Source: Acidobacteria bacterium RIFCSPLOWO2_12_FULL_68_19 (GTDB lineage: Bacteria; Acidobacteriota; Vicinamibacteria; Vicinamibacterales; UBA2999). Taken from it: 41,166 bases of DNA. Below are positions 22,036-40,106 of the stretch, piece after piece. Every line of letters starts with the position of its first letter. Position 1 is the stretch's first letter. The notes below the pieces were generated by a model that saw only the letters and a program-made list of their open reading frames with translations, had not been told where the DNA came from and did no database searches. The DNA is taken from the NCBI GenBank assembly GCA_001767525.1, contig MELF01000043.1:1-41166 (forward strand). Reading direction: 5' to 3'. The translations under genes were made by a program, and so were the position numbers.

Positions 22036-22150
22036 CCTGAGCATCCTCCCAGCGGACGCCGGATCCCCCGATCCGGCAAGCCCGCCATCAGGCCCTCAGG
22101 TGGTCTACTTTCCGAGCGGCGATTGGTCTACTTTCTGAGCGGCGCGCCCA

Positions 22151-22155
22151 GCCCC
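22151..22155. repeat. IS21 target-site duplication, right copy
   Basis: GCCCC directly follows the terminal CA of the IS and is identical to 19579-19583. Confidence 0.85.
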
Positions 22156-22760: not shown

Positions 22761-22988
22761 TCACCTTTCCGATGGCGAGGACTTCTGGCCGAGCCAGTCT
22801 ACCAGCGCGCGCTCCTGGAAAAGGACCCGGCGGCCCAGCCGGACCACGCCAGGAATTTGCCTGCGCTCCACCATTGCGTAAACGGCCTTCCTGGTCGTGC
22901 GGAGCAGGTCGGCGACCTCGCTGCTTGTGAGGAAGGTGGGGAGGACGGACGGCCGGGGTGTCGAGGTAAGCGTTCCAGTCTTCCTCAT
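22761..22988 (-). CDS. AlpA/excisionase-like helix-turn-helix protein
   Basis: A 75-residue protein with a MerR-like helix-turn-helix domain of the excisionase/AlpA type: TSSEVADLLRTTRKAVYAMV, then IPGVVRLGRRVLFQERALVDWL, the wing typical of this family. It lies three bases upstream of the integrase gene, and its ATG overlaps the stop of the next gene upstream (ATGA). Such proteins act as directionality factors that turn integrase toward excision, or as transcriptional regulators of the integrase. Both uses are established for the family; which applies here is unknown. The first ~15 residues are non-conserved. Confidence 0.88.
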   Translation of the reverse strand: MRKTGTLTSTPRPSVLPTFLTSSEVADLLRTTRKAVYAMVERRQIPGVVRLGRRVLFQERALVDWLGQKSSPSER

Positions 22989-23494: not shown

Positions 23495-23732
23495 CGTCCA
23501 CCGCAAAACGACCGCGTAGGCATACCTCCGGGTATCAAGTAGCCGCGCCGGTCGGTCGCCGCGTGTGCTAAGCGAACCGTCAGGACTTTCGTCGAGGCTC
23601 TCGCGCCCCCGGCAGGTCAGGCTAGACGACTCGGACCTTCAGAGGCCCAAGCGGTCGACACCAGATCTACACGCGAAAACTGCGACGGTAATCGGTTTGG
23701 ATTGTGATCGCAGGAATGGGCTCCGTCGAGGC

Positions 23733-24515
23733 TTACTGACCCCCGAACACCAGGTCGACGTGCCGAACAGGTGTTCGCCTCGTGGCGACCTGGGAGATGC
23801 CAAAGTGCCCAGCGACGATGAAGTCAAGCACGCGAGACGGAGCGCGCTTCAACACGGTCTTTGGAACGGCCGCGATATTGAGTCGTCGTTCCTTCAGCAG
23901 ACGCGTCAGCTTAGCCCCGCGCTCTAGCACGTCGCCATGCGACTCACGCCAGATTTGCCTGACCGGGGATGAAAGATCGCGTCGGAGGGACTGAACCTGA
24001 TCCGGCAGGGGCACGAGCCGCTGCTGTGGTCGATTCCCAACACCGCGCCAGTCAGACCGGAACAACAGGTCGTCAAAGACCCGGATCCCCCGTTCGGCAA
24101 GCCCGCGCCAGGTGCCAGACGATGCGTTGTGCCGGGCCAGGGTGTTCAGAAACCGCTGAGCATATGGCACCCGCAAATGCAGATCGTAGGCAACGCATAG
24201 GCGACGGAAGAGGGCGCTGCCCTTCATTCGAGAGCGCCTGGCGTCCTGCCGTTCTTCTCGGGAGCTTTGGTGGTCCACCTTGGCAGCCCGGTGGAGCCGT
24301 CTTGAGATCAGCTCAAGCTCCTCCAGGACTCGCTCAAACGACGGCAGTTCCTCCATCTTCCGTCGATGCGTCTGGTAGGCCGCACTCTGAGCGAAGTCCT
24401 CACGAAGCACGAACCGCTGTCCGGCTTGGAAGATCACCGTTGGAATCGAGCGTGCCCGGCGAGCCGCTCGGCCCTCTGAGGCAGCCCTCTTCCGAGAGCG
24501 CAATGCCAGAGCCAT
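23733..24515 (-). CDS. Hypothetical protein of the island
   Basis: A 260-residue protein I do not recognise. It is very rich in Arg and Leu, with predicted helices throughout, a charged central part (RREERQD-like) and no signal peptide or membrane segment. GGAGG six bases before ATG 24515 supports translation. It lies between the initiator-like gene and the serine recombinase and has the same leftward direction. A DNA- or RNA-associated role is suggested only by the high Arg content. The roughly 240 bp between it and the initiator-like gene show nothing convincing. Confidence 0.55.
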   Translation of the reverse strand: MALALRSRKRAASEGRAARRARSIPTVIFQAGQRFVLREDFAQSAAYQTHRRKMEELPSFERVLEELELISRRLHRAAKVDHQSSREERQDARRSRMKGSALFRRLCVAYDLHLRVPYAQRFLNTLARHNASSGTWRGLAERGIRVFDDLLFRSDWRGVGNRPQQRLVPLPDQVQSLRRDLSSPVRQIWRESHGDVLERGAKLTRLLKERRLNIAAVPKTVLKRAPSRVLDFIVAGHFGISQVATRRTPVRHVDLVFGGQ

Positions 24516-24628: not shown

Positions 24629-24731
24629 GGTGTCCCAGAAACAGATGATTGCGGGACAGGGCGCGCGATGGCTAAAACGAGCGGATTGTCGAGCGAATCA
24701 GGAGGCGAGTTCGGCGGGTTTCTGGGACACC
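24629..24731. repeat. 14-bp inverted repeat and dyad at the end of the recombinase gene
   Basis: GGTGTCCCAGAAAC at 24629-24642 is repeated in inverted orientation at 24718-24731, bracketing the stop of the serine recombinase. A further dyad, TGTCCC (24631-24636) and GGGACA (24653-24658), gives a 28-bp interrupted palindrome just outside the gene. The arrangement could be a recombination or binding site for that recombinase, or a relic of an earlier insertion boundary. Confidence 0.5.
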
Positions 24732-25282
24732 CTGGCGCGGTGAACGACGGATCGGGATACTCCGAGGGCCGCTGCCGCTTCACGCACCGACAGGTGTGCC
24801 GTTCGCACGATGTCTGCGAGCGCCATGTTGGCGGCAGGACGCCCCAGGCGCTTGCCGGAAGCTCGAACCCTCGACAGGCCAGCTCGAACCCGTTCGGCGA
24901 TTCGCGCCCGCTCGAACTCGGCGAGGGCTCCAAGAACGTGCAGCTGCAGTCGCCCTGCAGCGGTCGTGCAGTCGATGCCCTCACCCAGGGACACGAACGC
25001 CACGCCGAGGGCCTGCACGTCCTCCAGCAGCGTCACCAGGTGCTTCAGATTGCGCCCGAGGCGATCCAGTCTCCAGACGACCAGGACGTCGAACCGCCGC
25101 CGCCTGGCGTCCGCAACGAGGCGGTCCAGAGATGGCCGGCGGTCCTTCGCTCCGCTCACGCCTCTGTCGATGTATTCCACAGCCGTCCAGCCACGGGCCT
25201 CGACGTAGCGACGGAGTTCCTGGAGCTGGTTCTCGGGTTCCTGGTCTGAGGTGCTGACACGAGCGTAGATGGCAGCGCGCAT
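24698..25282 (-). CDS. Serine recombinase, resolvase/invertase type
   Basis: A 194-residue site-specific recombinase. The N-terminal catalytic domain has YARVSTSDQ with the nucleophile Ser10, then DRGVSGAKDRRPSLDRL and VWRLDRLGRN with the catalytic arginines, and the long E-helix with EFERARIAERVRAG. The C-terminal helix-turn-helix (VREAAAALGVSRSVVHRA) binds DNA. Size matches Tn3-type resolvases and DNA invertases. It could resolve dimers or replication intermediates of the island or invert a segment. Its upstream region carries a palindrome shared with a divergent small gene, and its 3' end carries inverted repeats that may be its target. Confidence 0.93.
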   Translation of the reverse strand: MRAAIYARVSTSDQEPENQLQELRRYVEARGWTAVEYIDRGVSGAKDRRPSLDRLVADARRRRFDVLVVWRLDRLGRNLKHLVTLLEDVQALGVAFVSLGEGIDCTTAAGRLQLHVLGALAEFERARIAERVRAGLSRVRASGKRLGRPAANMALADIVRTAHLSVREAAAALGVSRSVVHRARVSQKPAELAS

Positions 25283-25583: not shown

Positions 25584-28250
25584 ATGCCGCGCCTTTCTCT
25601 CGCCAAACTCGAACGTCACCTCTATGCCGCTGCCGATCGGCTGCGCCAAGAGGGACTCGATGCTGCCACCTACAAGGACTACATCTTTGGGATACTGTTC
25701 TTGAAACGCTGTTCCGACGTCTTCGACGCCGAGAACGAGAAGCTCGTCGGAGAGAAAGTGCAGCAAGGCATGGTCGTCAGGGAAGCCCAAGTCCTATACG
25801 GCGAGAATCCGGACTACTACGACGGCTTCTTCGTGCCGGAGCGCGCCCGCTGGACATATCTTCAGGTCACACTCAACGATGCCAACGTCGCCTATGGCAG
25901 CGTCCTCGACACGGCACTGGGCGCATTGAGTGAAGCGAATGAATCGCTGGAGCACGTCCTCGACCACATCAGCTTCATGCGCACGCAGGGCAACAAGCGC
26001 ATCCTGTCTGACGACGCCTGCAAAGATCTCGTCCGCCACTTCTCCAAGCACCGGCTCCGCAACGAGGATTTCCAGTTCTCCGACCTGCTCGGCGCGGCCT
26101 ACGAGTTTCTCATCAACATGTTCGCGGAGTCGGCCGGCAAGAAGGGCGGCGACTTCTACACGCCCCGAGACGTCATCCGCCTAATGGTGCGCATCCTCAA
26201 GCCTGCGCCAGGCATGAGCGTGTATGACCCCACCTGCGGTTCGGGCGGTATGCTCATCATCAGCCGCGAGTTCATTGAACAATCCGGTGGCGACCCCACC
26301 AACCTGCGCCTCTGCGGCCAGGTGAACGACGCTTCGGCGTGGTCCATCTGCCGGTTGAACATGCTGCTGCACGGCGTGCCCGGCGCGGATATCCAGCTCC
26401 AGGACACCTTGCTCCATCCGATGCATCGCGAGGCCGGCGAACTGGAACGCTTCGACCGCGTCATCGCCAATCCGCCTTTCAGCCAGAACTACACCCGTAG
26501 CAACATGGAGTTCCCCGAGCGTTTCCGCTGGGGCTGGTGTTCCACGTCGGGCAAGAAGGGCGACCTCATGTTTGCTCAACACATGCTCGCCGTCTGCAAA
26601 CCCGGCGGCATGGTGGCCACCGTCATGCCCCACGGCGTCCTTTTTCGCGGTGGCGCGGAAAAGGAGATTCGCAAGAAGTTCCTCGAACAGGACCTCATCG
26701 AAGCCGTCATCGGTCTGCCGCAAAACCTGTTTTACGGCGCGGGCGTCCCGGCGTGTATCCTCATCATGCGGCCCAATCTCGCCGGGCAGTCGCCCAATTC
26801 GAACAAGCCCGTCGACCGCCAGGGCAAGGTGCTCTTCATCAATGCCGACGCCGAGTTCCATGCTGGCCGCGCGCAGAACTATCTCCGCCCGGAACACGTT
26901 GAGAAGATCGTCTCCACCTTCGACCGCTATCAGGACATCCACGGCTACGCCCGCGTTGTCCCGCTCACCGAGATCGCTAGCGAAGCCAACGACTTCAATC
27001 TGAACATCCGCCGCTATGTGGACAACTCGCCGCCACCGGAACCGCACGACGTGCGCGCCCACCTGCTGGGCGGCGTCCCCGTGGCGGAAGTAACGGACAA
27101 ACGTCCACTCTTCGATGCGCTCGGCTTCAAGTCCGAACACGCCTTCGCGGCACGCGAAAATGGCGCTAGATACTTTGATTTCGCCCCCGTGTTGCCTGAA
27201 CGCGCCGCCATCCGCCCGCTTGTCGAGAACGACCCCGGCGTGCAGGCGTGCTTGATAGCCGTCCGCAAGGAGCTCTCCGCGTGGTGGGCGGAACACTCGC
27301 CGCGCCTCGCGGACCTCCCGCGCCGCCGCGACCTCAATCGCGTCCGCAGCGAGTTCCTCGACACCTTCGTCACCACGCTGCTTCAGATGAAGGCCAGCGG
27401 CGGCTCACCGCCGCTCGACCGCTTCAAGCTCGCTGGTGTCATCGCCACCTGGTGGACGGATACGCTGCCCGACTTCAAGACCCTGCTCGAAAACGGATTC
27501 CCCGGCGTCATAGACGGCTGGGTTGATGCCATCGCCGACGCGGTGGAGGACGACGATAATGCCGGCCCAGCCTTCGATCCCTTCGGCCACAAGCTCGTCT
27601 GCCGCACTATGGCGGATTACCTGGAACGCATCGCCACGGCCAAGGCGGACGTCTCGCGGCTCAAGGGCGAGAAAGAAGCGTTCGAGCAAAGCAATGCCCC
27701 CGACGACTTCGACGAGGACGAACTGGCCGAGTGGAACTACGCCAAGGACCTCGACCGGCAGATGCGCGAACTCAAGACCGAGCACAAGGACGCCCTAAAG
27801 GCGCTGACGAGACTGGAACGCGCCGCCGCCCGAGCCCGCGCCACCGAAGACGACAACCGCGCCGTCATCGACGCGACCGCCGCCCTCCAACCGGTCCTGG
27901 GCCAGCTGTCCGCCTTGGAGGCCGCACTCCAGCCCTACGACCAAATCAAGGAACAGCTCGCCGAGGCCCGCGCCCGCTTCCGCACGCTCACCGGTGAGTT
28001 CGTGAACGAACTCAAGGCCCGCTGCGGCGCGATGAACGACGACCAGAAGCGTGCCCTCGCCCTCGAACTCTTCGCGCAGGACGTGCAGGCTGGCCTGGAC
28101 GCCGCCGTCGCCGAGAAACGGCAGGGACTCGTGCGCGTCATCGAAGGGCTATGGGACAAGTATCGCGTGACGCTGGGCGACCTGCGGTTTAACCGGCACA
28201 CTGCCGAGGACGCGGCGAGGACATTCATGAGTTCTCTCGGATACCAATGA
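25584..28250 (+). CDS. hsdM: Type I restriction-modification methyltransferase subunit
   Basis: An 888-residue N6-adenine DNA methyltransferase that uses S-adenosylmethionine to protect host sites and forms M2S or R2M2S complexes. The HsdM N-terminal helical domain begins LAKLERHLYAAADRLR. SAM motif I DPTCGSGGM starts at D215, and catalytic motif IV NPPF is at 296-299; GGDFYTPRDVIRLM before motif I is typical. Beyond about residue 480 there is a long extra C-terminal region with an Asp/Glu-rich stretch and coiled-coil-like helices to the end. This makes it far longer than the ~500-residue EcoKI form; such long HsdM proteins are known. ATG 25584 starts at the conserved domain. It overlaps hsdS by four bases. 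Confidence 0.95.
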   Translation: MPRLSLAKLERHLYAAADRLRQEGLDAATYKDYIFGILFLKRCSDVFDAENEKLVGEKVQQGMVVREAQVLYGENPDYYDGFFVPERARWTYLQVTLNDANVAYGSVLDTALGALSEANESLEHVLDHISFMRTQGNKRILSDDACKDLVRHFSKHRLRNEDFQFSDLLGAAYEFLINMFAESAGKKGGDFYTPRDVIRLMVRILKPAPGMSVYDPTCGSGGMLIISREFIEQSGGDPTNLRLCGQVNDASAWSICRLNMLLHGVPGADIQLQDTLLHPMHREAGELERFDRVIANPPFSQNYTRSNMEFPERFRWGWCSTSGKKGDLMFAQHMLAVCKPGGMVATVMPHGVLFRGGAEKEIRKKFLEQDLIEAVIGLPQNLFYGAGVPACILIMRPNLAGQSPNSNKPVDRQGKVLFINADAEFHAGRAQNYLRPEHVEKIVSTFDRYQDIHGYARVVPLTEIASEANDFNLNIRRYVDNSPPPEPHDVRAHLLGGVPVAEVTDKRPLFDALGFKSEHAFAARENGARYFDFAPVLPERAAIRPLVENDPGVQACLIAVRKELSAWWAEHSPRLADLPRRRDLNRVRSEFLDTFVTTLLQMKASGGSPPLDRFKLAGVIATWWTDTLPDFKTLLENGFPGVIDGWVDAIADAVEDDDNAGPAFDPFGHKLVCRTMADYLERIATAKADVSRLKGEKEAFEQSNAPDDFDEDELAEWNYAKDLDRQMRELKTEHKDALKALTRLERAAARARATEDDNRAVIDATAALQPVLGQLSALEAALQPYDQIKEQLAEARARFRTLTGEFVNELKARCGAMNDDQKRALALELFAQDVQAGLDAAVAEKRQGLVRVIEGLWDKYRVTLGDLRFNRHTAEDAARTFMSSLGYQ

Positions 28251-29482
28251 ATCGACGCCTGACAACACGAGTAGCAGACAAAGCGAAGGTGCTGATGGGG
28301 CAATCGCCGCCGTCTGCGGCTTGTTCTGAGACTGGCGATGGCTTGCCCTTCATCCAAGGCAACGCCGAATTTGGGAGGCGGCATCCGACCCCAATTCTCC
28401 GATGCTCTGCGCCCACAAGAATCGCCGAGTCCGGTGATTTGCTTCTCAGTGTTCGCGCCCCTGTTGGTGAATTGAACCAGGCAGTTGAGCGCACCGTGAT
28501 TGGCCGTGGCCTCTCCGCACTACGCTTCGAACCTTCGCAGAGAAGTTTCGCCTGGCACTCAGTCAACTTTTCAGCGCCGGCACTCAACCGGGTCGCACAA
28601 GGCACAACTTTTCTAGCCGTCAGTCGAGAGGATGTCGAGAGGCTCGAAATCCCGTGGCTTCATGAGGCAAATCGCGACGTTGCGGCGGTGCTGGACAAGA
28701 TGGACGAGGCGATTGCGAAAACGGAGGCCGTGACTGCAAAGCTGCGGCAGGTGCGCGCCGGCCTGATCCACGACCTCCTCACCCGTGGCGTCGGCAGGAA
28801 CGGTCAACTCCGGGACCCGATCTCCCACCCTGAACAATTCGAAGAGTCACCGCTCGGCCGCATCCCCAAGGAGTGGCGCCGCACAACTCTCGGGGACGCT
28901 GCTGACTGGTCTAGCGGCGGCACGCCAAGTCGTTCCCAGTCCTCTTGGTGGAATGGTGACGTCCCAATTCTCACACCGAAAGACATGAAGGTCTTTGAGG
29001 TGTCCGACACCACTGAACATGTCTCGATGGACGCTGCGGTGACTGGCTCGAAAGTAATGCCAGCCGATACCGTGTTCATCGTCGTGCGCGGGATGATTCT
29101 CGCTCACACCTTTCCGGTGTGCCTCAGCACGCGGCCGTTCGCGTTCAACCAGGACATCAAAGCAGTGCGCGGAAAGCACGGCTTAACGCCACGGTTTCTG
29201 GCGCACTGGTTCACTGCGAATGCGTCCACTTTCCTGCGCAAGACTACCGAGGCGACGCACGGAACAAAGAAGCTGGATTCGAAAGAGCTACACCGCACCC
29301 CTATCGGTGTTCCCGACCCGGACGAGCAGGTTGCGATTGTCGAGCGAATCGAGGCGCTCGACTCGGCGCTTCGGGCTGAGATGTTAGGAGCTGCCAAACT
29401 CGGCAAGCTGAAATCGGGCCTGATGACCGACCTGCTCACCGGCCGCGTCCGCGTGCCGGAACCCATCGGAACAACACCATGA
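28247..29482 (+). CDS. hsdS: Type I restriction-modification specificity subunit
   Basis: A 411-residue HsdS with two target-recognition domains (about 1-140 and 205-360), each followed by a helical conserved region. The first helix spans about 141-185 (LDKMDEAIAKTEAVTAKLRQVRAG) and the second the last ~50 residues (GKLKSGLMTDLLTGRV). The second domain opens with PKEWRRTTLGD, a frequent HsdS motif, and contains GTPSR. It determines the bipartite DNA site recognised by the complex. The first recognition domain begins unusually close to the N-terminus and lacks the usual PxxW opening, so it may be slightly shortened. It is coupled to hsdM and hsdR by ATGA overlaps. Confidence 0.94.
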   Translation: MNRRLTTRVADKAKVLMGQSPPSAACSETGDGLPFIQGNAEFGRRHPTPILRCSAPTRIAESGDLLLSVRAPVGELNQAVERTVIGRGLSALRFEPSQRSFAWHSVNFSAPALNRVAQGTTFLAVSREDVERLEIPWLHEANRDVAAVLDKMDEAIAKTEAVTAKLRQVRAGLIHDLLTRGVGRNGQLRDPISHPEQFEESPLGRIPKEWRRTTLGDAADWSSGGTPSRSQSSWWNGDVPILTPKDMKVFEVSDTTEHVSMDAAVTGSKVMPADTVFIVVRGMILAHTFPVCLSTRPFAFNQDIKAVRGKHGLTPRFLAHWFTANASTFLRKTTEATHGTKKLDSKELHRTPIGVPDPDEQVAIVERIEALDSALRAEMLGAAKLGKLKSGLMTDLLTGRVRVPEPIGTTP

Positions 29483-32400
29483 GCAAGATCCAATGGGAAT
29501 ACGATCTCGTCGAACGCTCGTTCTGCGGGCAGCTCAAGGCGATGGGCTGGCAATGGATCGAGGGCGATACCGATGTGCCCGACTTCACCGAACGCCAGAC
29601 TTTCCGTGAAGTATTGCTCAAAGGCCGGCTCGCCGCCGCGCTGCGGAAGCTTAACCTCCGCGACGGCCAGCCCTGGCTGGATGATGACCGTGTCGGCCGC
29701 ATCGTCGAGAAGTTAGAGAGGGCCGAGGGCCATCGCCTAATCGAGATCAACGAGTCGGTTACCAAGCTCCTGCTCAAGGGGACGGAGATTGACGGCCTGG
29801 CGGATTGGAACTTCGGGCGCAACCAGCCGGTTCGGTTCATCGATTTCGAGAATCCCACGAACAACGACTTTCTCGTCATCAATCAGTTCAAGGTGGAACT
29901 GACCAGCGGACGTGGCCACGTCATCCCCGATTCAGTGCTGTTCGTGAATGGCATCCCGCTCGGGGTGGCGGAGTTCAAGAGTCCCGGCATCGAGAACCCG
30001 TTGCAGGAAGCCATCAATCAACTGCTGCGCTACTCCAACCAGCGTCGCGAAGTCTGGCCTACGCTCTATACCGACAACGAGGGCGTGGAGCGCCTGTTTC
30101 ACACCAACCAGTTGCTCATCGCCAGCGATTTCTTCGAGGCGCGAGCTGCCACCCTCGGCGCACCGCCGGAGGCGTATCTCGAATGGGCGGACACCAGCCC
30201 CGTGCCCCTGAGCACGGTCGCACAGGAACTCGGCGTCCTGTCGCGCTCGCCGGACGAGCCGGAAGCGGCGCAGGAACTCGCGGTCGTCGGCCCGGAGAAA
30301 GGTGATCGCGCAGGCATTCCCTTGTTCTTTCGAAAATCGGAGCAGCGTCCCGAGGGCATGCGCAGCCAGGGAGCGACTTTGCACAGCCAGCAGATTCTCA
30401 CGGCCGGCATGTTGCGCCCGGCACATCTGCTCGACCTCATTCGCAACTTCACGCTGTTCCAGCAGGTGGATGGCAAGACGCGCAAGGTGGTGGCGCGCTA
30501 CCAGCAGTTCCGCGCCATCCACAAGGCGGTCACGAAGCTGGCGGAGGGCCGCACCAGGGCTCAGGGCGTGGAGCGCGACGAGCGCGGCGGCATTGTCTGG
30601 CACACGCAGGGTTCAGGCAAGAGCCTCAGCATGGTGTTCCTCGTCCGCAAGATGCGGATGATGCCCCGCTTGAACCGGTTCAAGGTTGTGGTTGTCACCG
30701 ACCGCACCGATCTACAGGATCAGCTTGGCGCGACGGCGCAGTTGAGCGGCGAAGCCGTGCGTCCGACCGACGAAGATTTGAAATCGCGTGAATCGCCCAC
30801 GGCCTTGACTCAGCGTCTCCTGAGCGAGCGCACGCCCGACATCGTCATGGCGATGCTGCAAAAGTATCAGCCTGTCGGGGCGAAGCCCGATGCGAAGAGT
30901 CTCACTGTGCTGCCGCAGGCGGGCGAGAAGCCGGCCGACAAAGTGGCCATGACGATTCTCCGCAAGGAAAAGAAGCCTGGCAAAGACGAGGCGGTCGTTG
31001 AAAGGCAGGTCACGTTCACCGAGAACATCCGGTTCGAGGAGTTCCCCGAGTTAAACAAGTCGGAGGAGATTCTCGTGCTCGTGGACGAGGCGCACCGTTC
31101 GCACACCCGCACGCTCCACCGAAACCTCCGCAAGGCACTGCCCAACGCGGCCATCATCGGCTTCACCGGCACGCCCATCCTGAGCCACGACAAGAAGGAG
31201 ACTCGCGAGATCTTCGGCGACTTCATTGACAAATACATCCTGCAAGACGCGGAACTCGACGGCGCAACAGTGCCGATCCTCTACGAAGGCCGGACGGCGG
31301 ACGGGATTGTGAAGGACGCGCCCAGCCTCGACGCGGTGTTCGAGGACATGTTCCGCGATTACACGCCCGAGGAACGCGCCGTCATCAAGGCGAAGTACGC
31401 CACCGAGGGCGACGTGATGGAAGCGCCGATGCTCATCGAGCAAAAGGCGCGCGACCTGATCCGGCATTTTGCCAGCGTGGTCTTGCCGGAGGGCTACAAA
31501 GCGCAGGTGGTTGCCACGAGCCGTCAGGCGTGCATGACCTACCTCGACAAGCTGGCGCAGGCGCGCAACGAACTCGTTGCGGAATTGGAGGCTGTGTCCG
31601 CCGCGACGCTCGCCTTGCCCGATGACGAGGTCGAGAAACTGGATGCGAAGACACGTGTCCTCGTGCGCCTCCACAAGGAACTGCCGAAAATCCGCGCCTT
31701 CGAGATCGCCGCCGTGTTCTCCGGCAATCATAACGACCCGGAATCGTGGTGGGATTGGGCGGACAAGGGCAAGCAAGAGGAGTTCATTAAGAGGTTCAAG
31801 CGCAAGTTCGCCACAGCCAAGACCGAGAAGACCGACCCGCTCTCGATTGTGGTTGTGACGAACATGCTGCTGACGGGCTTCGACGCACCAGTGGAGCAGG
31901 TGCTTTACCTCGATCGGAAACTCGTCGCACACGACCTGTTGCAAGCCATCGCCCGCGTGAACCGCACGTCCGGCCAGAAGAAATGCGGTTACGTCGTGGA
32001 CTATATCGGCGTGGCCCGTCACTTGAACGAGGCGCTCACTGATTACGACGGCAGCGACATTGAGGGCGCGCTGATTGACATCAACGCCGAACTGCCCAAG
32101 CTGCTCGACCGCCGGGCGCGGGCGGTCGCCGTCTTCACCGATCGCGGCATCAACGACCTTCAGGGACAGGTGGACGCCTGCGTGCAGTTGCTCGAAGACC
32201 TGAAGATCCGGGCGGACTTCATCAATAAGCTCCGTTCGTTCTACGAAATGCTCGGCTTGCTGGAGCATCGCCCGGAAGTGCCAGGAGATGTCTTCCGTGA
32301 TGCGAAGCTCCTGGGCTTCATCAACAAGGTCGCCGCCAACCTGTACCGCGATCCGGCACTAGACCTATTCGGCGTAGCGGAGAAGGTGAGGTCCCTGATC

Positions 32401-33009
32401 AACGCGCATGTGTCCGCGCGTGGGGTTGACCCAAAGATTCCTCCCACCGCCATCACGGACGCCGAGTTCGAGAAGGTGTTGCAGGCGCAGGGCAGTAGCC
32501 GTGCGCGCGCCGCGCAGATGCAGCACGCCGCGCGTTATCACATCATCGGCTTCTCGAACCAAAACCCCGCTTACGCCCGGAAGATGAGCCAGCGGCTGGA
32601 GGAGATTCTCCAGCGGTTCAAGGATGACTGGAACGCGCTGGAACGGGAACTGCGCAGGTTCATTGATGAACTCCGCCAGGGCGACCGGAATGATTTCCCT
32701 GACCTTGACGCAAAGGTGCAAGTGCCCTTTGTGCGGCTGGTGCTGGAAGAGTGTGGCAAGGGACGCGAACTCACGGCGGAGCAGCGCGGGCAGGCGATCA
32801 AGGTTACTCTGGACATGGTGGAACGCATCCGCCAGGAGCTGCGAAAGGTCGGTTTCTGGAAGAACGACGCCATGCGCGAGCTGCTGACTAAAGCACTGGT
32901 TCGCGATTTGAACAGCGCCAAGGTATGCCGTCCGGAAGGGGAACGCGACCTGGCCCAACGGTTGGTCGCGCTCGCCAGGGAAAACCATTCGAATCTCACC
33001 CGCCAATGA
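29479..33009 (+). CDS. hsdR: Type I restriction enzyme endonuclease/translocase subunit
   Basis: A 1176-residue HsdR, the ATP-driven motor and nuclease of the type I complex. The N-terminal PD-(D/E)xK nuclease has D151 (VIPDSVLF) and E165-x-K167 (VAEFKSPG). Superfamily 2 helicase motifs follow: Walker A GSGKS (378-382) in HTQGSGKSLSM, DEAH at 536-539, GFTGTPI, and the later LLTGFDAP and AIARVNRT segments of the second RecA domain. The C-terminal helical region binds HsdM. All key residues are present and the length is typical. It starts by an ATGA overlap with hsdS and ends by an ATGA overlap with the metallopeptidase gene. Confidence 0.96.
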   Translation: MSKIQWEYDLVERSFCGQLKAMGWQWIEGDTDVPDFTERQTFREVLLKGRLAAALRKLNLRDGQPWLDDDRVGRIVEKLERAEGHRLIEINESVTKLLLKGTEIDGLADWNFGRNQPVRFIDFENPTNNDFLVINQFKVELTSGRGHVIPDSVLFVNGIPLGVAEFKSPGIENPLQEAINQLLRYSNQRREVWPTLYTDNEGVERLFHTNQLLIASDFFEARAATLGAPPEAYLEWADTSPVPLSTVAQELGVLSRSPDEPEAAQELAVVGPEKGDRAGIPLFFRKSEQRPEGMRSQGATLHSQQILTAGMLRPAHLLDLIRNFTLFQQVDGKTRKVVARYQQFRAIHKAVTKLAEGRTRAQGVERDERGGIVWHTQGSGKSLSMVFLVRKMRMMPRLNRFKVVVVTDRTDLQDQLGATAQLSGEAVRPTDEDLKSRESPTALTQRLLSERTPDIVMAMLQKYQPVGAKPDAKSLTVLPQAGEKPADKVAMTILRKEKKPGKDEAVVERQVTFTENIRFEEFPELNKSEEILVLVDEAHRSHTRTLHRNLRKALPNAAIIGFTGTPILSHDKKETREIFGDFIDKYILQDAELDGATVPILYEGRTADGIVKDAPSLDAVFEDMFRDYTPEERAVIKAKYATEGDVMEAPMLIEQKARDLIRHFASVVLPEGYKAQVVATSRQACMTYLDKLAQARNELVAELEAVSAATLALPDDEVEKLDAKTRVLVRLHKELPKIRAFEIAAVFSGNHNDPESWWDWADKGKQEEFIKRFKRKFATAKTEKTDPLSIVVVTNMLLTGFDAPVEQVLYLDRKLVAHDLLQAIARVNRTSGQKKCGYVVDYIGVARHLNEALTDYDGSDIEGALIDINAELPKLLDRRARAVAVFTDRGINDLQGQVDACVQLLEDLKIRADFINKLRSFYEMLGLLEHRPEVPGDVFRDAKLLGFINKVAANLYRDPALDLFGVAEKVRSLINAHVSARGVDPKIPPTAITDAEFEKVLQAQGSSRARAAQMQHAARYHIIGFSNQNPAYARKMSQRLEEILQRFKDDWNALERELRRFIDELRQGDRNDFPDLDAKVQVPFVRLVLEECGKGRELTAEQRGQAIKVTLDMVERIRQELRKVGFWKNDAMRELLTKALVRDLNSAKVCRPEGERDLAQRLVALARENHSNLTRQ

Positions 33010-33713
33010 CAGAGACACTTCAGCTCGCTGGCCTGGAGTTCGAGGTCCGACGCAGTGACCGGCGGACAACGTTCGGTTTGACCGTGGATCGCAGCGGCGA
33101 GCTGGTGGTCCACGTCCCCTCCAACACATCGGGGGATGAATTGTCGGGTTGGATCAATAAGAAGCTGCTCTGGGTGCATCGCAAGCTCGCGCTCAAGGAG
33201 CAGACCGCGCCCAAACTGCTCGGGCCGGAATACGTGTCCGGCGAAGCTTTCAGCTATCTAGGCCGACGCTACCGTCTCAAGTTGGTTGAACGTCAAGAAC
33301 ACCCGCTTCACTTCGATGGCGCACGCTTCACTCTGCGTCGCGACGCCAGACCAGCCGAGCGACATTTCCGCCACTGGTATATTTCAGCCGGTTGCGACTG
33401 GGTGGCGCGGCGCGTTGAAGCCCTCTCTGCTCGGACCGCCAGCAGGCCGTGCCGGGTCGAGGTTCGTGACTTGGGTTTTCGTTGGGGATCGTGCGGCCGG
33501 AACGGAGTCGTTTACTTCAACTGGAAGCTGCTTCAGTTGCCTGTCCGGCTCGCGGATTACGTCATCGCTCACGAACTCGTTCACCTGCGTGAAGGCCACC
33601 ACGGGCCGGAGTTCTGGGCTGCCCTCAGCCGGGCCATGCCAGACTGGCAGAAACGGAAGGATGCGCTCGCCAGCGGAGCCAAGGAGTACCTCGTCTTCGG
33701 CCTCTCTGTATGA
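33006..33713 (+). CDS. YgjP-type metallopeptidase (DUF45) of the hsd operon
   Basis: A 235-residue protein of the YgjP/WLM zinc metallopeptidase family. The zinc motif is HELVH at 189-193 with a third His at 198 or 199 in REGHHGPEFW; the typical FRWGSCG segment is at 158-164. No signal peptide is present, so it acts in the cytoplasm. The ATG overlaps the hsdR stop (ATGA), so it is the fourth gene of the restriction operon. DUF45 genes are a recurring neighbour of type I restriction genes and may control HsdR levels by proteolysis, but that has to be inferred; known alleviation of restriction in E. coli uses ClpXP. Confidence 0.88.
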   Translation: MTETLQLAGLEFEVRRSDRRTTFGLTVDRSGELVVHVPSNTSGDELSGWINKKLLWVHRKLALKEQTAPKLLGPEYVSGEAFSYLGRRYRLKLVERQEHPLHFDGARFTLRRDARPAERHFRHWYISAGCDWVARRVEALSARTASRPCRVEVRDLGFRWGSCGRNGVVYFNWKLLQLPVRLADYVIAHELVHLREGHHGPEFWAALSRAMPDWQKRKDALASGAKEYLVFGLSV

Positions 33714-33747: not shown

Positions 33748-35244
33748 TCAAAAACGAGCGCCTGGCCGGTAGTACGACTCTCGGTCCTCATCTTCATCCG
33801 CGTCTCGATCCTTCGCGCCAATGGCAAGAATGTCTCTGACTGTCAGGGGAGACGTCTTGGCCTGCCGACATGCGACCGCCGCCAACGCCAACGCGGCAGC
33901 ATGGTCATCGTGGCCACCATGCGGATGATCGATGAGAACACGGCCGCCGGTCCGGAACCTGCGCTCCAGACACTTCAGCTCTTTCACCAGTTGCGGGTGG
34001 TCCAGCAGGTCTATGCGACCCTCAGCGAACAGCGGCTCAAGTTCTCCAAAGGCTGCCGACTTATCGATCGGAGCCTCGCGGTACGTCACTCCGACAGACG
34101 AGAACGCTTGTGGCACCCATTGGCCAGCGTACCTATCTCCCGTGACACGCGTAACCCTGTAGCGTTTGAGCACATGCGCAATCTCAGCGACCACCCCAGA
34201 CAGATCGATGGCATGGGAGCCCTGTCGACTCCAGCCCTTCACGACATCGACCACGAGGCGCGCCCCTGTGCCGCTGCCTTCGCTGTGGCAGATGGCCATC
34301 GCGAACGCATCCGGCCCGCCGCCGCTGGGGTCCACGGCCGCGTGGTACTGCACACCGTTCTGCGGCGGCAGCTCGTACCGATGAGGACACACCGCGTCTT
34401 CGACCCACGCGTACGGGAGAAACGCTCCAGTATCCTCGGCGAACTCAGCCTCGAACTCCCGGGCGAAACGCGACGGGTCGAGTCGGCGTTCGCGTTCCAG
34501 GCGCTCGGCCTTGATGGTGGGATTCATCAGGACCGTACTGGCGCGCCAGACTAGAAGATCGGGGTTGTCCTGGCCGAAACCACGAATGAAGTCGTCGTGC
34601 AGAACGCCGGACTTCATGTACGGCGTTGAGATCTTGACGAGCCGTGTCTGCGGAAATCCGATCATGCCCCGTCGAATCGATGCCTGGATTTCGACGTCGG
34701 CGTTCGCTTGCCCTTCGAGCCGGAAGAAAGCCACCTCGCTCAAACCGGCCACTGGTATCGACCAGCCCCGCACGCTGCGAAGCGTCGAAGGGAAGCACGC
34801 GACGTGAACGCCGTTCGCGAGCGTCAGTTCGAACGTCTGGACATCCGCGATCTGAGAGGCGAGGAGCGGCGACTGCGTCAGGTAGTCTCGGATGTAGCTG
34901 AAGGCGATTTTCGTTGCACGCAGGTCCTGCGCGATGAGAGGCACCATAGCTCGTTCGCCCTTCGCCAGGTGCACTTCGTGGCCTCCGAACAGAGCTTCGT
35001 AGCACATGATCGGAGCACTGATCCGCGAGTCCTTTCCGGCCCTCGCCCCCGCGATGACTGTGACCTCGCCAAACCCGGCCGACGGCGCGTTCTGCCGACC
35101 CGTGCAGGTGCGAAACAGGTCGAGCTGGGTGGCCGACAGCGGCAACCCGTAGATGGCCCGGAGCAATGTGGCCTGCGCCTCGGACAGCGACAGGTTCAAG
35201 AGCTGCGGGTCGGTCACGAACTCGACGATGTCGGGAAAGGTCAC
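33748..35244 (-). CDS. Phage-type terminase large subunit, orphan
   Basis: A 498-residue protein with terminase large-subunit architecture. The ATPase half has a Walker A-like GARAGKDS at 66-73, a hydrophobic Walker B strand ending AGLSE with E170 (Ser in place of the usual Asp), and a coupling motif around KISTPY. The nuclease half has an RNase H-like Asp triad: AVDPSGGGPDA (D305), VTGDRYAGQW (D370) and HDDHAAALALA (D446 or D447). It should cut and pump DNA into a capsid. No portal, capsid or tail gene is in the island, so packaging would need a helper phage. GTG 35244 overlaps the stop of the upstream gene (GTGA). Confidence 0.86.
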   Translation of the reverse strand: MTFPDIVEFVTDPQLLNLSLSEAQATLLRAIYGLPLSATQLDLFRTCTGRQNAPSAGFGEVTVIAGARAGKDSRISAPIMCYEALFGGHEVHLAKGERAMVPLIAQDLRATKIAFSYIRDYLTQSPLLASQIADVQTFELTLANGVHVACFPSTLRSVRGWSIPVAGLSEVAFFRLEGQANADVEIQASIRRGMIGFPQTRLVKISTPYMKSGVLHDDFIRGFGQDNPDLLVWRASTVLMNPTIKAERLERERRLDPSRFAREFEAEFAEDTGAFLPYAWVEDAVCPHRYELPPQNGVQYHAAVDPSGGGPDAFAMAICHSEGSGTGARLVVDVVKGWSRQGSHAIDLSGVVAEIAHVLKRYRVTRVTGDRYAGQWVPQAFSSVGVTYREAPIDKSAAFGELEPLFAEGRIDLLDHPQLVKELKCLERRFRTGGRVLIDHPHGGHDDHAAALALAAVACRQAKTSPLTVRDILAIGAKDRDADEDEDRESYYRPGARF

Positions 35245-35753
35245 TTTGCCTCGATCCCGCTCTCCGGCTCGCTTTGGGGTGCCTGCTGCGCCCGACTTGC
35301 AAGGTATTCGTGAAGCGGCGTCACCGGCTTTGCCCGCCGTTCCAGTCCGAGGGCTGCCAGGTAGCGCGCGATTGCGTCTGCCAGCTGGGTGCGTTCGCGG
35401 ACGACCGGCAGGAGAGCGCGCTTCCGGACGTTCACCAGCAAGGGCTGCTTCAAAAGCCAGGCGTCGATGCTGTCGAGCATCAGCTTGGTGCGGACCACCA
35501 AGTCAACCAGCGCCCGTTGTTGCGTCGAGATAGCCGTGTCTCCGCCGAGATCAGAAATCAGCTCATCGCGCCAGCCAGCGAGGGCCTTCCCGACGGTCGT
35601 GCGACGGTCGACAGCGCGGCTGCCAAGCACCTTGACGGCCTGCTTCAGCTCGCGAAGACCGGTGTTGGAACTGGAGGCAATCGCCTGGGTATTCCTCGCG
35701 AATGCGTCCGGTTCATGCCAGCGTTCCTGCCGGATCTCGGGTTGGAGTGCCAT
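35241..35753 (-). CDS. Hypothetical protein coupled to terminase, possible small subunit
   Basis: A 170-residue, mostly helical, charged protein. Its stop overlaps the GTG of the terminase gene by four bases, and its ATG has GGAG at a suitable distance. Size, location directly upstream and translational coupling fit a terminase small subunit, which recognises packaging sites. However, no clear DNA-binding helix-turn-helix is visible and I do not recognise the family. It could instead be an unrelated island protein. The 160 bp upstream are shared with the divergent AAA-ATPase gene. Confidence 0.55.
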   Translation of the reverse strand: MALQPEIRQERWHEPDAFARNTQAIASSSNTGLRELKQAVKVLGSRAVDRRTTVGKALAGWRDELISDLGGDTAISTQQRALVDLVVRTKLMLDSIDAWLLKQPLLVNVRKRALLPVVRERTQLADAIARYLAALGLERRAKPVTPLHEYLASRAQQAPQSEPESGIEAK

Positions 35754-35913: not shown

Positions 35914-37098
35914 ATGCTGACGAAAGTGACCGTTGAAAACTTCCGGAGCATCGAGAGATGCGAGGTGGAACTTGCGCCCATCACGATCTTCTTTGGCCCA
36001 ACGTCGGCCGGAAAGTCGACGCTGTTCTACGCTCTTCTCGTTCTCAGAAACTTCATTCTGAATCCGAATCAGGCCGTTGACGGTTTCTTCAACTTGGGGT
36101 TTCAGAATCTCGGTGGGTTTGACGCCTGCGTTTTCAATCACGTTCTGTCTAAAACGCTCGGCGTCACGGCCCACTTTGGCCATCGCAGCTACGGCGTCCA
36201 CCTTCGAAAGACCGACGCGGACATTGTCGAGGAGAGTGAATTTCTTCACATGAACGCGAAAGTGCCTCTTCCCTACAACGCTGGCCAGTCTTTTCCCTTC
36301 AGCTACACAGATAAAGAGGAAGAGTTCACAATCAACTGGAATGGCTTCGCCTCCACAGTAGCGCCCAAGACGACGGCAACGTCGGAAGCGCAGGCCCAAG
36401 CGGTCAATCTAGCGGAAGCGTTGAATGGTCCTGTCGAAGCAATCAAGGGCGTGGATGTGTGCCCCCATCGTCGCGGATTCTTTAAGCCGAGCTATTCTCC
36501 GGCCCCGCTGACGCCAACACCGACAAGTGAAGATGAAGTAGCGACGCTAATCATTAACGATCAGAACGCACCGCCACGAATATCGATCAATACGGTGGAA
36601 GTCTTTGACCGCGACTTCCGAACCTACACGCCTCCAGGCACGGCGGTCACATTTCTGCAAACAACCGAACAGAAGGACGCTCGCGTGCCTGGTCTGCTCG
36701 TTAACGACGGCTTCGGCGTCAACCAAGTCGTCTACATGCTCTCGAAGATTCACAGGCCGGATGTCGAAACCGTCTTGATTGAGGAACCGGAAATACACCT
36801 GCACCCCACGGTCATCAGGAAGTTTGCCCGCGTCCTAAGCCATCTTGCGACTGAAGAAGAAAAGCAATTGATCTTCACGACGCACAGCGAGCAGTTCCTT
36901 CTGTCAATTCTCGCCTGCGTGAAGGAGCGATTGCTTCGACCGGATCAAGTGCGTTGCTACCACGTTGCTAGGGACAGAAAGAAGACCATCTTCACTCATG
37001 AGCCCGTATCGGACGAAGGTCAGATCTCTGGCGGACTCTCGTCCTTCATGGAGGGCGAACTTCAGGACATCAAGTCTTTTCTTTCCGTCGGCGAATAG
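35914..37098 (+). CDS. AAA/ABC-type ATPase of a two-gene module
   Basis: A 394-residue SMC/OLD-like ATPase. The N-terminus VTVENFRSIERCEVEL leads to Walker A GPTSAGKS at 28-35. An insertion of about 200 residues follows (helical and charged). The C-terminal lobe has a signature-like GFGVNQVVYML (266-276), Walker B with catalytic acids VLIEEPEIHLHP (287-298) and the switch His in FTTHSEQFL (H324). There is no TOPRIM domain, unlike OLD nucleases, so the nuclease activity may be supplied by the next gene. GGAG lies before ATG 35914. Base composition is visibly more AT-rich than neighbours, suggesting a separate origin. Similar ATPases are sensor or motor parts of antiphage systems; function here is inference. 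Confidence 0.85.
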   Translation: MLTKVTVENFRSIERCEVELAPITIFFGPTSAGKSTLFYALLVLRNFILNPNQAVDGFFNLGFQNLGGFDACVFNHVLSKTLGVTAHFGHRSYGVHLRKTDADIVEESEFLHMNAKVPLPYNAGQSFPFSYTDKEEEFTINWNGFASTVAPKTTATSEAQAQAVNLAEALNGPVEAIKGVDVCPHRRGFFKPSYSPAPLTPTPTSEDEVATLIINDQNAPPRISINTVEVFDRDFRTYTPPGTAVTFLQTTEQKDARVPGLLVNDGFGVNQVVYMLSKIHRPDVETVLIEEPEIHLHPTVIRKFARVLSHLATEEEKQLIFTTHSEQFLLSILACVKERLLRPDQVRCYHVARDRKKTIFTHEPVSDEGQISGGLSSFMEGELQDIKSFLSVGE

Positions 37099-37104
37099 CT
37101 GAAC

Positions 37105-37551
37105 GTGGCCGTCTTCGTCATCAACGAGTGGCTGTGGGCTGATTCGTTTGGAGACAACGGCGCGGAGCGTCAGAAGGAAGCGTTCAACGTCATCGTGAAG
37201 CTGTCGCAGTCACAGCATCGAATTGTTGTCATTGTCGGCAGCCGATTCGACGAAAAGGCTTGGAGGCTCTGCAAGAGCACCAACACCAACGTGGCCGAAA
37301 TCGCCAAGGTGTACTTCGGCATTCTCCGAATCAACTCTGATCGTTGTCTGTTGCTGAAGTCAGAGAATGTTGCTGCGTTATCTGACAATCTGTCCCAGTC
37401 GATAAAAGACGACGACCACTACCTTGTTCGTGCACAGTTGAGCGTGAACGACGCGATTCTCGTAACGACGGACGAACCGCTTCGCAATGTGGTGACGCAA
37501 GCAGGTCTGAGTTGTTTGTCCCGTGAAGACTTCCTGGCGACTTATTTCTGA
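37105..37551 (+). CDS. PIN-like nuclease-domain protein paired with the ATPase
   Basis: A 148-residue protein starting with GTG six bases after the ATPase stop. The fold pattern is PIN-like: a first strand FVINEWLWAD, a central acidic cluster KDDDHYLVRAQ (D102-D104), and NDAILVTTDEPL with D116 and D123, close to the C-terminal acidic motif of PIN RNases. The usual first Asp is replaced by Asn7/Glu8, so activity is uncertain or the metal site is altered. It is the last gene before attR. Together with the ATPase it looks like a regulator-effector pair in which an RNase is activated by the ATPase; this is inference. Confidence 0.7.
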   Translation: MAVFVINEWLWADSFGDNGAERQKEAFNVIVKLSQSQHRIVVIVGSRFDEKAWRLCKSTNTNVAEIAKVYFGILRINSDRCLLLKSENVAALSDNLSQSIKDDDHYLVRAQLSVNDAILVTTDEPLRNVVTQAGLSCLSREDFLATYF

Positions 37552-37783
37552 AACTGAGTGTGTCGTTAATAAGTCCGAGCAAGTCCGGAACCTTGTGCTG
37601 CTCGGCCCAGAAGTGTTGGTGCGCCGAGCGAGGAGCGTTGCCACGATGTTGCCAAGACTAGGGTCGATTCGTGCGGACTCACGGGGACGGACGCGGACAA
37701 CGGCGAGGCGTCAACGTGATGACCGGCGAGCACTTGTTGCCAGAAGTCCTTCGCCATCATCACGTTAGAATTTGACGACTTTA
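37552..37783. other. Non-coding right end of the island
   Basis: This 232-bp stretch between the PIN-like gene and attR has no convincing gene. The minus strand holds a short frame with SLGNIVATLLARR that resembles the GNMLATG end of the island's own integrase, and the arm-type-like repeat at 37637-37656. Nothing else is seen. Confidence 0.5.
37637..37656 (+). repeat. Possible integrase arm-type site, right end
   Basis: GTTGCCA-N4-GTTGCCA, the counterpart of 19077-19096 (two mismatches, in the four-base spacer), lies 127 bp before attR. Confidence 0.4.
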
Positions 37784-37809
37784 GGGTTCGACTCCCGCCG
37801 CCTCCACCA
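37784..37809 (+). other. attR, duplicated ssrA 3' end
   Basis: An exact 26-bp copy of 19006-19031, with no tmRNA sequence upstream of it. It marks the right boundary of the island; the sequence after 37809 (CTCCAGAAC) is different from that after attL. Confidence 0.92.
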
Positions 37810-37861
37810 CTCCAGAACTGTCGATGATCTTGCCGGGCTGACGCGTCAGCGCGTCGAGCCG

Positions 37862-38470
37862 ATGGTGCGTGGCCTGTTCCCCACGACGGAACAAGACCCG
37901 GTGCTCCAGATCCTTGAAGGGTCTGTGGTCGTGCTCACGACTGAGAACATCGCTTCCGTGTTGCGTGAGACCACCTGGATGCATACCGCTTGGGATCTGG
38001 CAAACCTGTACCTCACCAGCGTCGGCGCCAGCCTGCTCAGTGCCGAGGCGCCGGGCTTGGTCGGACTCAGCGAAGAGACAACCTGCTACGTGTCGATCGA
38101 CTACTTCCGGGGGCTGGGCCGGTTCGAGGACTTCATCGTCCACGAGGCTGCACATATCTTTCACAACTGCAAGCGACACACGATGGGCCTTCCCGAATCG
38201 TCCGCGCGCGAATGGCCGCTCGATATCGCATACGACAAGCGCGAGACGTTCGCGTATTCGTGCGAGGCGTTCAGCCGCGTCGTCGAACGTGGATCAACCC
38301 GGCAGGCTCGGCTTGCGCTGGTCCGTGAACTGGCAGACGGTCACGTGCCCGAAACGGATCGCCTCGACGCCCGGGAGTACGTGAGTGTCCTGACGGAGGC
38401 CGCGGGTGCCAGAAACGATTGGAAGCACATTCTCAGTCGTTGCGCACCTCCCCGCCATCCCCGGCGGTGA
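37862..38470 (+). CDS. HExxH-motif protein, probably 5' truncated at attR
   Basis: The open frame runs from within attR; the first plausible internal start is ATG 37862, giving 202 residues. The protein has a putative zinc motif HEAAHIFHNCKR (HExxH) with FAYSCEAFSR downstream that could supply the third ligand. It has no signal peptide or membrane segment. The codons between attR and 37862 (DDLAGLTRQRVE) look protein-like, so the original gene probably began upstream and lost its 5' end when the island, or an earlier one, was joined here. A metal-dependent peptidase is the most likely class; no specific family is recognised. Activity is doubtful if truncated. Confidence 0.6.
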   Translation: MVRGLFPTTEQDPVLQILEGSVVVLTTENIASVLRETTWMHTAWDLANLYLTSVGASLLSAEAPGLVGLSEETTCYVSIDYFRGLGRFEDFIVHEAAHIFHNCKRHTMGLPESSAREWPLDIAYDKRETFAYSCEAFSRVVERGSTRQARLALVRELADGHVPETDRLDAREYVSVLTEAAGARNDWKHILSRCAPPRHPRR

Positions 38471-38626: not shown

Positions 38627-39259
38627 ATGACGAGCGCAAGACCCAAGTCCTCCCGGACGGATAAACTCCAGCGGCTATTTGAACTGGCGGCCGGCCAAGC
38701 CGGCTACTTCACTGCGGCGCAGGTGCGCGAGCTGGGCTACAGCGCCCGCAGCGTCGTGCACCACGTCACCGCTGGGCATGTCGAACGGCTGAGCCGCGGA
38801 TTCTACCGGCTTGTGGGCGTGCCCGCCAGTGCGCACGAGGACATCGTGGCGGCGTGGCTGAAGCTTGCCCGTCGCGCGGTCGTATCCCATGACACGGCGC
38901 TCGCCTTGTACGACCTCGCGCCGTCCCGGTCGCATGAGATCCATCTCACGCTGCCCCGGAAGTACCGACCTCGGACTCCGCAATCCGCGTCCACCGTGGC
39001 GCTGCACACGACCACCGTTCCGCTGCGCCGCGATGAGGTGACGAACCGTTTCGGCGTGCAGATCACGTCGCCCGCGAGGACCATTGCCGACATCGCCGAC
39101 ATCGGTGCCGACCCCAGCGTCGTCATCGAAGCGATCGGGCGCGCAGTCGCGACGGGCCTCGTGTCTCCAAACGAGTTGCGCACAGCCGTGAAGCGCCGCT
39201 CTGCTCGAGTCCGACAACTCGTCGCAAGGGCTATCCAAGAGGTCGGCCTCCGTGCGTGA
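38627..39259 (+). CDS. abiEi: Type IV antitoxin AbiEi
   Basis: A 210-residue AbiEi-family antitoxin/repressor. The N-terminal winged helix-turn-helix (FTAAQVRELGYSARSVVHHV, then VERLSRGFYRL) is the DNA-binding part. The C-terminal domain contains AVVSHDTALALYDL, the HLTLPRKYRP segment and SPARTIADIADI, all typical of AbiEi. It counteracts the AbiEii toxin without binding it directly and represses the operon. The gene has no Shine-Dalgarno, and the start sits right after the promoter. It overlaps abiEii by eight bases, indicating coupled translation. Confidence 0.93.
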   Translation: MTSARPKSSRTDKLQRLFELAAGQAGYFTAAQVRELGYSARSVVHHVTAGHVERLSRGFYRLVGVPASAHEDIVAAWLKLARRAVVSHDTALALYDLAPSRSHEIHLTLPRKYRPRTPQSASTVALHTTTVPLRRDEVTNRFGVQITSPARTIADIADIGADPSVVIEAIGRAVATGLVSPNELRTAVKRRSARVRQLVARAIQEVGLRA

Positions 39260-40106
39260 GTACGCCACGCCCGCTGCCTTTCGTGCCGCCGTCGAGGCCA
39301 GACTGCGCGAGCGCGCCCGTCGCCTCAGCGCGCCCGCATACATTGTCCGTCGCCAGGCCGCGCTCGACCGTTTGCTGGTACGCCTGACGAGAGTGGCGCC
39401 AGATCGCTGGGCACTCAAGGGTGGGTTGGCGCTCGAGACCAGGTTCGGGGAGCGTGCACGCGTCTCGATCGACCTGGACGCCGACCACGTTTACGGCGCC
39501 GAGGCAGCCCGTGCCGATCTCCAACGAGCCGCCATCGAGAACATCGGCGACCACTTCGGATTCGCCATCGTCGGCAGTGAGGAACTCCGCGAAGCGGGTG
39601 TCCGTCTGGCCGTGCGGTACAAGCTGGAGAGCTCCCTCACCGAACGGCCGTTCGAACCACTCCAGGTGGACGTCACGATCGTCCCACCCGATCCCTGGGA
39701 TGCTCAACCCGTGTGGCGGCAGGGACTCCTGACCGAGGTCGGACTCGACCCCTTCGAGGTCCTGCTGATTCCGTTGGAGCGGCAGATCGCCGAGAAGCTG
39801 CACGCCTTCACGCGAACATACAAAGGTGGTGGCACGACGCGCGCGAGAGATCTCGTGGATCTGCTGCTCATCCGCCAGCATGGAGGTGTCGACGTCAGTC
39901 TGCTGCGAGAGGCTGTTCGGCGTATCTTCCATCGCCGTGCGACGCACCCGGTTCCCGATCGCCTGCCACCTCCGCCGGCCGCGCTGGCTGTCGCCTACCG
40001 CAGGGAAGCGCAACGAGTTTCCGCTGTCGCCGGTCTTGAAGAAGCGCACCGACTGCTCGCGCAGTGGCTCGATCCCGTGTTGGCGGAGATTCACCACATC
40101 GGCTAG
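39252..40106 (+). CDS. abiEii: Type IV toxin AbiEii nucleotidyltransferase
   Basis: A 284-residue nucleotidyltransferase of the AbiEii/AbiGii (DUF1814) family. The catalytic signature is KGGLALETRFGERARVSIDL with the following DAD (GG then DxD), followed by QVDVTI carrying the third acid, and EKLHAFTRTYKGGGTTRARD with the Lys/Arg-containing DUF1814 motif and DLVDLLLI. Family members transfer nucleotides, some to tRNA acceptor stems, to stop growth and abort phage infection. The start is GTG 39252. All motif residues appear present, so the pair is likely functional, in contrast to the broken toxin-antitoxin genes just downstream. Confidence 0.94.
   Translation: MREYATPAAFRAAVEARLRERARRLSAPAYIVRRQAALDRLLVRLTRVAPDRWALKGGLALETRFGERARVSIDLDADHVYGAEAARADLQRAAIENIGDHFGFAIVGSEELREAGVRLAVRYKLESSLTERPFEPLQVDVTIVPPDPWDAQPVWRQGLLTEVGLDPFEVLLIPLERQIAEKLHAFTRTYKGGGTTRARDLVDLLLIRQHGGVDVSLLREAVRRIFHRRATHPVPDRLPPPPAALAVAYRREAQRVSAVAGLEEAHRLLAQWLDPVLAEIHHIG

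Follow-up and report, generated by a model that had tools for sequence, protein, structure and literature searches.

Dozens of capsid-less islands with both terminase halves suggest satellites whose own motor loads them into the particles of other phages

Results

An att-bounded island at the tmRNA gene

Our analysis concerned one stretch of DNA (hereafter the window), the 41,166-nt contig MELF01000043.1 of Acidobacteria bacterium RIFCSPLOWO2_12_FULL_68_19 (GCA_001767525.1). The last 26 nt of its tmRNA gene, identified with ARAGORN, (GGGTTCGACTCCCGCCGCCTCCACCA; attL, 19006–19031, plus strand) recur as an exact direct repeat at 37784–37809 on the same strand (attR); by our own estimate, chance recurrence of such a 26-mer is expected about once per 10^11 such windows. 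The 18.8-kb island between the repeats has a G+C content of 61 %, compared with 71 % to its left and 66 % to its right, and a tyrosine integrase lies beside the repeat derived from the 3′ end of the RNA gene, as expected of an integrative element.

The integrase gene is in two parts on the minus strand, a C-terminal part (19043–19594; PHROG integrase, E value 5e-33; homology ending near 19585) and an N-terminal part (22128–22757; PHROG integrase, E value 2e-18), which are 84 % identical to residues 201–373 and 1–204, respectively, of the intact integrase of a related island (L240). Between them lies an IS21-type insertion recognized by its inverted ends (approximate boundaries 19590–22144, minus strand), with an istB-like gene (19796–20560) and an istA-like gene (20557–22044) whose identities come from sequence reading only. 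The ends of the insertion are 25-nt perfect inverted repeats (19614–19638 and 22097–22121) plus outer copies, the outer motifs (TGGTCTACTTTC[CT]GAGCGGCG) being duplicated and occurring at each end; a target duplication around the insertion in the integrase could not be clearly placed. Because IS21 splits the integrase, the island probably cannot excise unaided at present.

Next to the integrase, and also on the minus strand, are an HTH_17 excisionase/AlpA-like regulator (22761–22988; Pfam HTH_17, E value 8e-12; PHROG excisionase, E value 6e-8), a possible replication protein with a weak, below cut-off HUH/Rep-like match (22985–23506; Pfam REP_ORF2-G2P, E value 0.03), a 260-aa protein without a match in Pfam, PHROG or PADLOC (23733–24515) and a serine resolvase/invertase (24698–25282; Pfam Resolvase, E value 2e-48) about 61–66 % identical to those of two other islands (L240 and L243). 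A plus-strand Type I restriction–modification (R-M) system follows, comprising the methyltransferase HsdM (25584–28250; PADLOC MTase_I, E value 8e-257), the specificity subunit HsdS (28247–29482; Specificity_I, E value 4e-43) and the restriction subunit HsdR (29479–33009; REase_I, E value 7e-114), and after it a YgjP-like metallopeptidase (33006–33713, plus strand; Pfam, E value 6e-49). The terminase pair described below occupies 33748–35753. Divergent from it is an AAA_15/AAA_21 (OLD/AriA-like) ATPase (35914–37098, plus strand; Pfam AAA_15, E value 3e-22; NsnB/AriA/Old-like in PADLOC), succeeded by a 148-aa PIN-like protein (37105–37551, plus strand) recognized mainly by sequence inspection (PRORP, a PIN nuclease, E value 0.03, below cut-off; no PADLOC match). 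The G+C content of this candidate defence pair (35914–37551) is far lower, at 53 %. The R-M genes, the AAA/PIN-like pair and the terminase genes thus share one att-bounded island, which the initial annotation had missed along with the IS21-broken integrase.

The initial annotation had described a terminase pair without any structural genes, and this description holds: none was found around the pair in the window, and Pfam, PHROG and PADLOC detected no capsid or portal gene within the island. Nor was a primase found in the island, with no alpha-type primase, one of the marks of P4-like satellites, among its annotated genes. Searches of the whole host genome for PF05065 (capsid) and PF04860 (portal) were also negative, so there is no resident helper of those types. 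Beyond attR are a zincin-like ORF (37772–38470), whose initial codons overlap the repeat, and, just past it, an AbiEi/AbiEii toxin–antitoxin pair (38627–40106), which the position of the repeat rules out as a component of the island.

A large and a small terminase subunit

The larger protein of the pair (498 aa; ORF confirmed at 33748–35244, minus strand) matched terminase families in PHROGs (phrog_2, E value 1.4e-18; phrog_9, 1.5e-5; phrog_38, 2e-5), while a Pfam search returned zero matches. A profile built from 32 relatives matched T4 gp17 (3ezk, E value 1.6e-12), the solved TerL nuclease domains 5tge and 5m1f (about 1e-11) and the TerL 6z6d (1.7e-9), placing the protein in the TerL family as the initial annotation had proposed; the closest annotated phage TerL is that of Synechococcus phage S-CBS4 (27 % identity). 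The Walker A-like loop and full Asp triad that had been read from the single sequence both proved intact when 155 relatives were aligned. The window protein reads GARAGKDS at Walker A, and the lysine of this motif (K71) is kept in 145/155; the catalytic glutamate (E170) is kept in 154/155, the remaining sequence having a gap; and the aspartates of the RNase H-like nuclease are kept in 155 (D305), 154 (D370) and 153 (D447) sequences. On these profile and motif matches, 33748–35244 encodes a TerL-type large terminase with the ATPase lysine and glutamate and a complete nuclease triad.

The Walker B region, GLSE, is as unusual as first thought. Among 154 TerLs, the residue preceding the catalytic glutamate is D in 135, E in 17 and S in two, the window protein and L069; the closest relative, L085, has DE at this place. 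We considered and dropped the idea that the odd Walker B marks a dead enzyme, since the catalytic glutamate is always retained in the aligned TerLs.

The smaller protein (170 aa; ORF confirmed at 35241–35753, minus strand) is encoded directly upstream of terL. The GTGA coupling noted in the initial annotation is present, and the same 4-nt overlap is the commonest TerS–TerL spacing among relatives (52/90). Sequence libraries gave no clear TerS match, so its identity rests on structure: PHROG and Pfam scans of 75 relatives found no TerS family (best hit Terminase_4, E value 0.05, in one sequence), a PDB sequence search returned nothing meaningful, and tblastn against database phages found none encoding a relative. 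An AlphaFold2 model built from the 75 relatives was all helical (pLDDT 80.8), and its two best matches among solved structures were HK97 TerS (Z 8.9; 83–84 residues superposed, rmsd 2.5–2.6), a score to be read with the caveat that helical bundles readily reach middling Z. The first five matches among viral predicted structures were all annotated as TerS. With an all-helical HK97 TerS-like core and a gene abutting terL, the 170-aa partner is, according to its model, a small terminase, as the initial annotation had anticipated, with an HK97-like fold; packaging-site binding and TerL stimulation are its predicted functions.

The pair within a family of tmRNA-site islands

The tmRNA 3′ end (tmRNA at 18677–19031 in the window) serves as a hotspot of integration throughout this bacterial family. 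Islands of 7.0 kb (L240, genome G030) and 8.8 kb (L238, G027) occupy the same site, each with unrelated cargo and a second copy of the 26-mer 7–9 kb downstream, and the TerS–TerL pair is absent from both. A third tmRNA-site island (L243, G040 contig 43) is PICI-like: it encodes a Terminase_2 TerS and a D5-type primase, and no TerL was seen in its first 20 kb. Genome G037 presents a near-empty site, with chromosomal flank about 0.8 kb after the tmRNA gene; the AbiE stretch is probably a second insertion because it, too, is absent there. None of ten further islands with the integrase family of the window (about 55–66 % identical) carries this pair, and several islands with related integrases have Type I R-M genes instead. 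The pair is therefore accessory in this island backbone.

These data bear on the reading that a packaging module was captured as cargo by a tmRNA-site defence island, of which the window copy is now immobile and heading for loss. The other cargo of the sampled integrase relatives, often Type I R-M with no such pair, fits this reading, as do the splitting of the integrase by IS21 and a Walker B Asp-to-Ser change found only in the window and L069. Against it, both ORFs are intact and translationally coupled, with the catalytic glutamate and Asp triad retained, and there are signs of selection. The only closer relative of both TerL and TerS recovered by our searches, the 15-kb viral contig L085 (TerL 63–65 % identical, TerS 52 %), gave a dN/dS of about 0.26 for both terminase genes (dN 0.32/dS 1.22 and dN 0.48/dS 1.87), although dS in this comparison is near saturation. 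The ratio points to purifying selection on TerL and TerS, in keeping with the earlier suggestion, made from the catalytic residues, that selection had kept the large protein.

L085 and L147, which share the TerS subfamily of the window, are also mobile-element-like. Besides TerS and TerL, L085 carries integrase, HTH and resolvase genes, a tape measure gene and, on the opposite strand, unrelated cargo; L147 (45 % in TerS) is an 11.7-kb tRNA-Lys element of Nitrospira. The tree built from 151 TerLs joined the window to L085 with 100 % support and placed both together with L073, L074, a Rhodococcus plasmid and ‘Virus Rctr16k’. We regard capture of the pair as cargo as unlikely, if the most serious of the alternatives to a packaging role.

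Relatives of the terminase pair

Searches of viral and genome collections with single sequences were negative, and relatives were gathered with an alignment of ten closer sequences, the 32-sequence alignment being too diverse for searching. These searches gave 58 viral loci and 80 of 167 genome loci, from Acidobacteriota, Pseudomonadota, Nitrospirota, Myxococcota and other phyla. TerL relatives occur in 28/396 genomes of the phylum of the window; the relatives were picked by similarity to the window and their proportions are not a census.

Gene calling and clustering across 176 TerL loci revealed a recurrent layout of integrase, small HTH protein, primase/RepA-like helicase, TerS and TerL, with one to several genes downstream of TerL and then host genes. 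The TerL-containing stretch is flanked by tRNA-derived direct repeats in more than 40 loci, and 34 elements were well delimited by long repeats of this kind (8.4–18.8 kb, median 11.6 kb). TerL and an integrase are present in all 34 and a recognizable TerS in 28. A major head (capsid) gene without a portal was found in 5/34 (four by cluster, and L064). No portal was among the 25 commonest PHROG families listed per scan; the scans covered nearly all other genes of these elements, and a single match to an unlisted family could exist. Primases, helicases, excisionases, several tape measures and a few neck proteins were among the families seen. The island and its relatives alike lack a complete virion gene set, as is characteristic of phage satellites.

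Some portal-less elements carry single virion genes. In two tRNA-bounded elements of 9–10 kb with no portal detected, a lone HK97-fold major capsid gene directly follows TerL (L143, 11607–12749; L207, 11512–12645), and satellites of this type may assemble a self-encoded shell on a portal from another phage. Tape measure or tape-measure-like large ORFs, again with no portal detected, occur in L085 (12077–15058), L061, L068, L144, L159, L174 and L182, most of which are also without a capsid gene; these proteins may set the length of borrowed tails. Separately, small alphaproteobacterial plasmids from Methylobacterium, Komagataeibacter and Roseomonas (L003, L004 and L006) combine resolvase, TerS and TerL with P4/D5-type primase or RepA-like replication genes (TerL of L006 is cut at the record end) and are possible satellite plasmids. 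TerL homologues with one in-frame stop (TAG, TAA), namely L062/L192 (G310 contig 206) and the second copy of L067 (G157), are decaying copies with an intact copy present in the same genome.

Portal genes accompany only 12/176 TerL loci, all of them viral contigs, and the portal-bearing TerLs are nested at a few positions of the tree of 151 sequences, away from the window. Close homologues are thus mostly not beside portal or capsid genes, the arrangement that would have spoken against the initial annotation. The same distribution makes it improbable that the pair was left behind when a prophage or cf-PICI-like element decayed and its capsid and portal genes disappeared. Such an origin would suit the portal genes found beside TerLs of the same family in some larger viral contigs (L109, L113, L115, L138 and L140), and the single virion gene (capsid, tape measure, hub or neck) that some elements retain; the att boundaries, however, allow no space for lost genes unless rearranged, and portal-less elements with the same layout, sharply bounded and with their genes intact, are found across many phyla.

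The pair has a Type I R-M system on one side and the AAA/PIN-like genes on the other within one island, and defence cargo is usual in satellites (PMC11389934). These points raise the further reading that TerL, with TerS, now serves in defence, as a nuclease or motor directed against invading phage DNA or its packaging. We consider this the least probable of the alternatives, slightly behind decay from a larger element. TerL matches no PADLOC family, its relatives accompany an integrase, a primase and sometimes a tape measure or capsid but not consistently defence genes, and most delimited elements retain TerS. For the defensive DNA-cutting role suggested earlier we found no direct evidence; the conserved TerS partner and the full ATPase and nuclease point instead to packaging.

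Discussion

In terminases, TerS locates the packaging site and TerL cuts the DNA, docks on the portal and translocates the DNA, TerL–portal contacts usually being specific. Given that TerS and TerL are identified and conserved, that the island is att-bounded with no portal or capsid detected, and that the layout recurs in dozens of elements, we favour, with somewhat better than even confidence, the interpretation that the pair is the holoterminase (TerS and TerL) of a phage-satellite-like integrative element packaged via helper procapsids. Having no portal of its own, such an element must use the procapsid of a helper. After excision and replication, the island would be recognized by TerS at a packaging site, where TerL would cut; TerL would then dock on the portal of the helper procapsid and pump island DNA into the empty procapsid with ATP, its nuclease making the terminal cut. 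The putative helper would supply portal, tails and, for most relatives, capsid, and the integrase would insert the delivered DNA at a tRNA or tmRNA 3′ end. Where relatives have tape measure, capsid or neck genes, the products may modify the borrowed particle.

That the pair packages DNA, that a helper phage exists and that TerL docks on a portal not its own are each inferred here, and the last is a demanding assumption because TerL–portal contacts are usually specific. The putative hijacking of helper capsids, proposed in the initial annotation, is the best reading for the relatives. For the window copy, with its broken integrase and sampled integrase relatives devoid of the pair, a packaging role is a presumptive one. 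Counted against it are the absence of the pair from the sampled integrase relatives, the missing primase, the broken integrase and the lack of a resident PF05065/PF04860 helper. The pair may be either an accessory that made the island phage-mobile, which we think somewhat likelier than otherwise, or a captured leftover, which we think unlikely.

Extending helper-dependent packaging to the relatives, we give roughly even chances to a widespread, unnamed satellite class that encodes a holoterminase, lacks a portal and relies on a motor able to dock on foreign procapsids, with subsets that reshape helper particles by adding a single virion component, be it a capsid of their own, a tape measure, a hub or a neck protein. 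The window would be a defence-loaded, integrase-inactivated member. Few satellites have been described in the phyla in which the relatives occur, and the defence cargo of the window (Type I R-M and the AAA/PIN-like pair) would be tied to possible phage-borne spread. A motor without a portal would, if real, depart from the usual rule of matched TerL–portal pairs and would open motor–portal specificity, the choice of helper and satellite packaging to direct tests.

The literature searched, of which coverage was partial, yielded no description of capsid-less satellites with TerS and TerL, so that novelty is not proven. The phage relatives of the two proteins, a homologue in Synechococcus phage S-CBS4 (TerL) and a structural relative in HK97 (TerS), come from complete phages. 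Among satellites, PICMIs resemble the window island and its relatives in their small size, tyrosine integrase, AlpA-like regulator, primase, defence cargo and lack of capsid remodelling, but a terS homologue was not found in PICMI (PMC10803314). PICIs and SaPIs share an integrase, an excisionase-like regulator and a TerS for redirecting packaging, as well as the primase of the window’s relatives; they use the TerL of the helper, whereas the window island brings its own and, while possessing the HTH_17 regulator, has no primase that we could find. The cf-PICIs and Streptomyces satellites encode TerS and TerL plus a full head set (PMC10690885). Like the window island, cf-PICIs are integrative satellites with their own TerS and TerL (PMC10690885), but they also encode capsid, protease, portal, connectors and HNH; the window island has neither the major capsid protein nor the portal that define them, and most relatives are without both. 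MulchRoom and MiniFlayer, satellites of Streptomyces phages, likewise have TerS and TerL but differ in encoding portal, capsid and scaffold proteins and in lacking a primase (PMC10690885). Known satellites thus bring either TerS only, relying on the helper motor, or a whole head, and the arrangement in the window is intermediate between the TerS-only PICIs and the full-head satellites.
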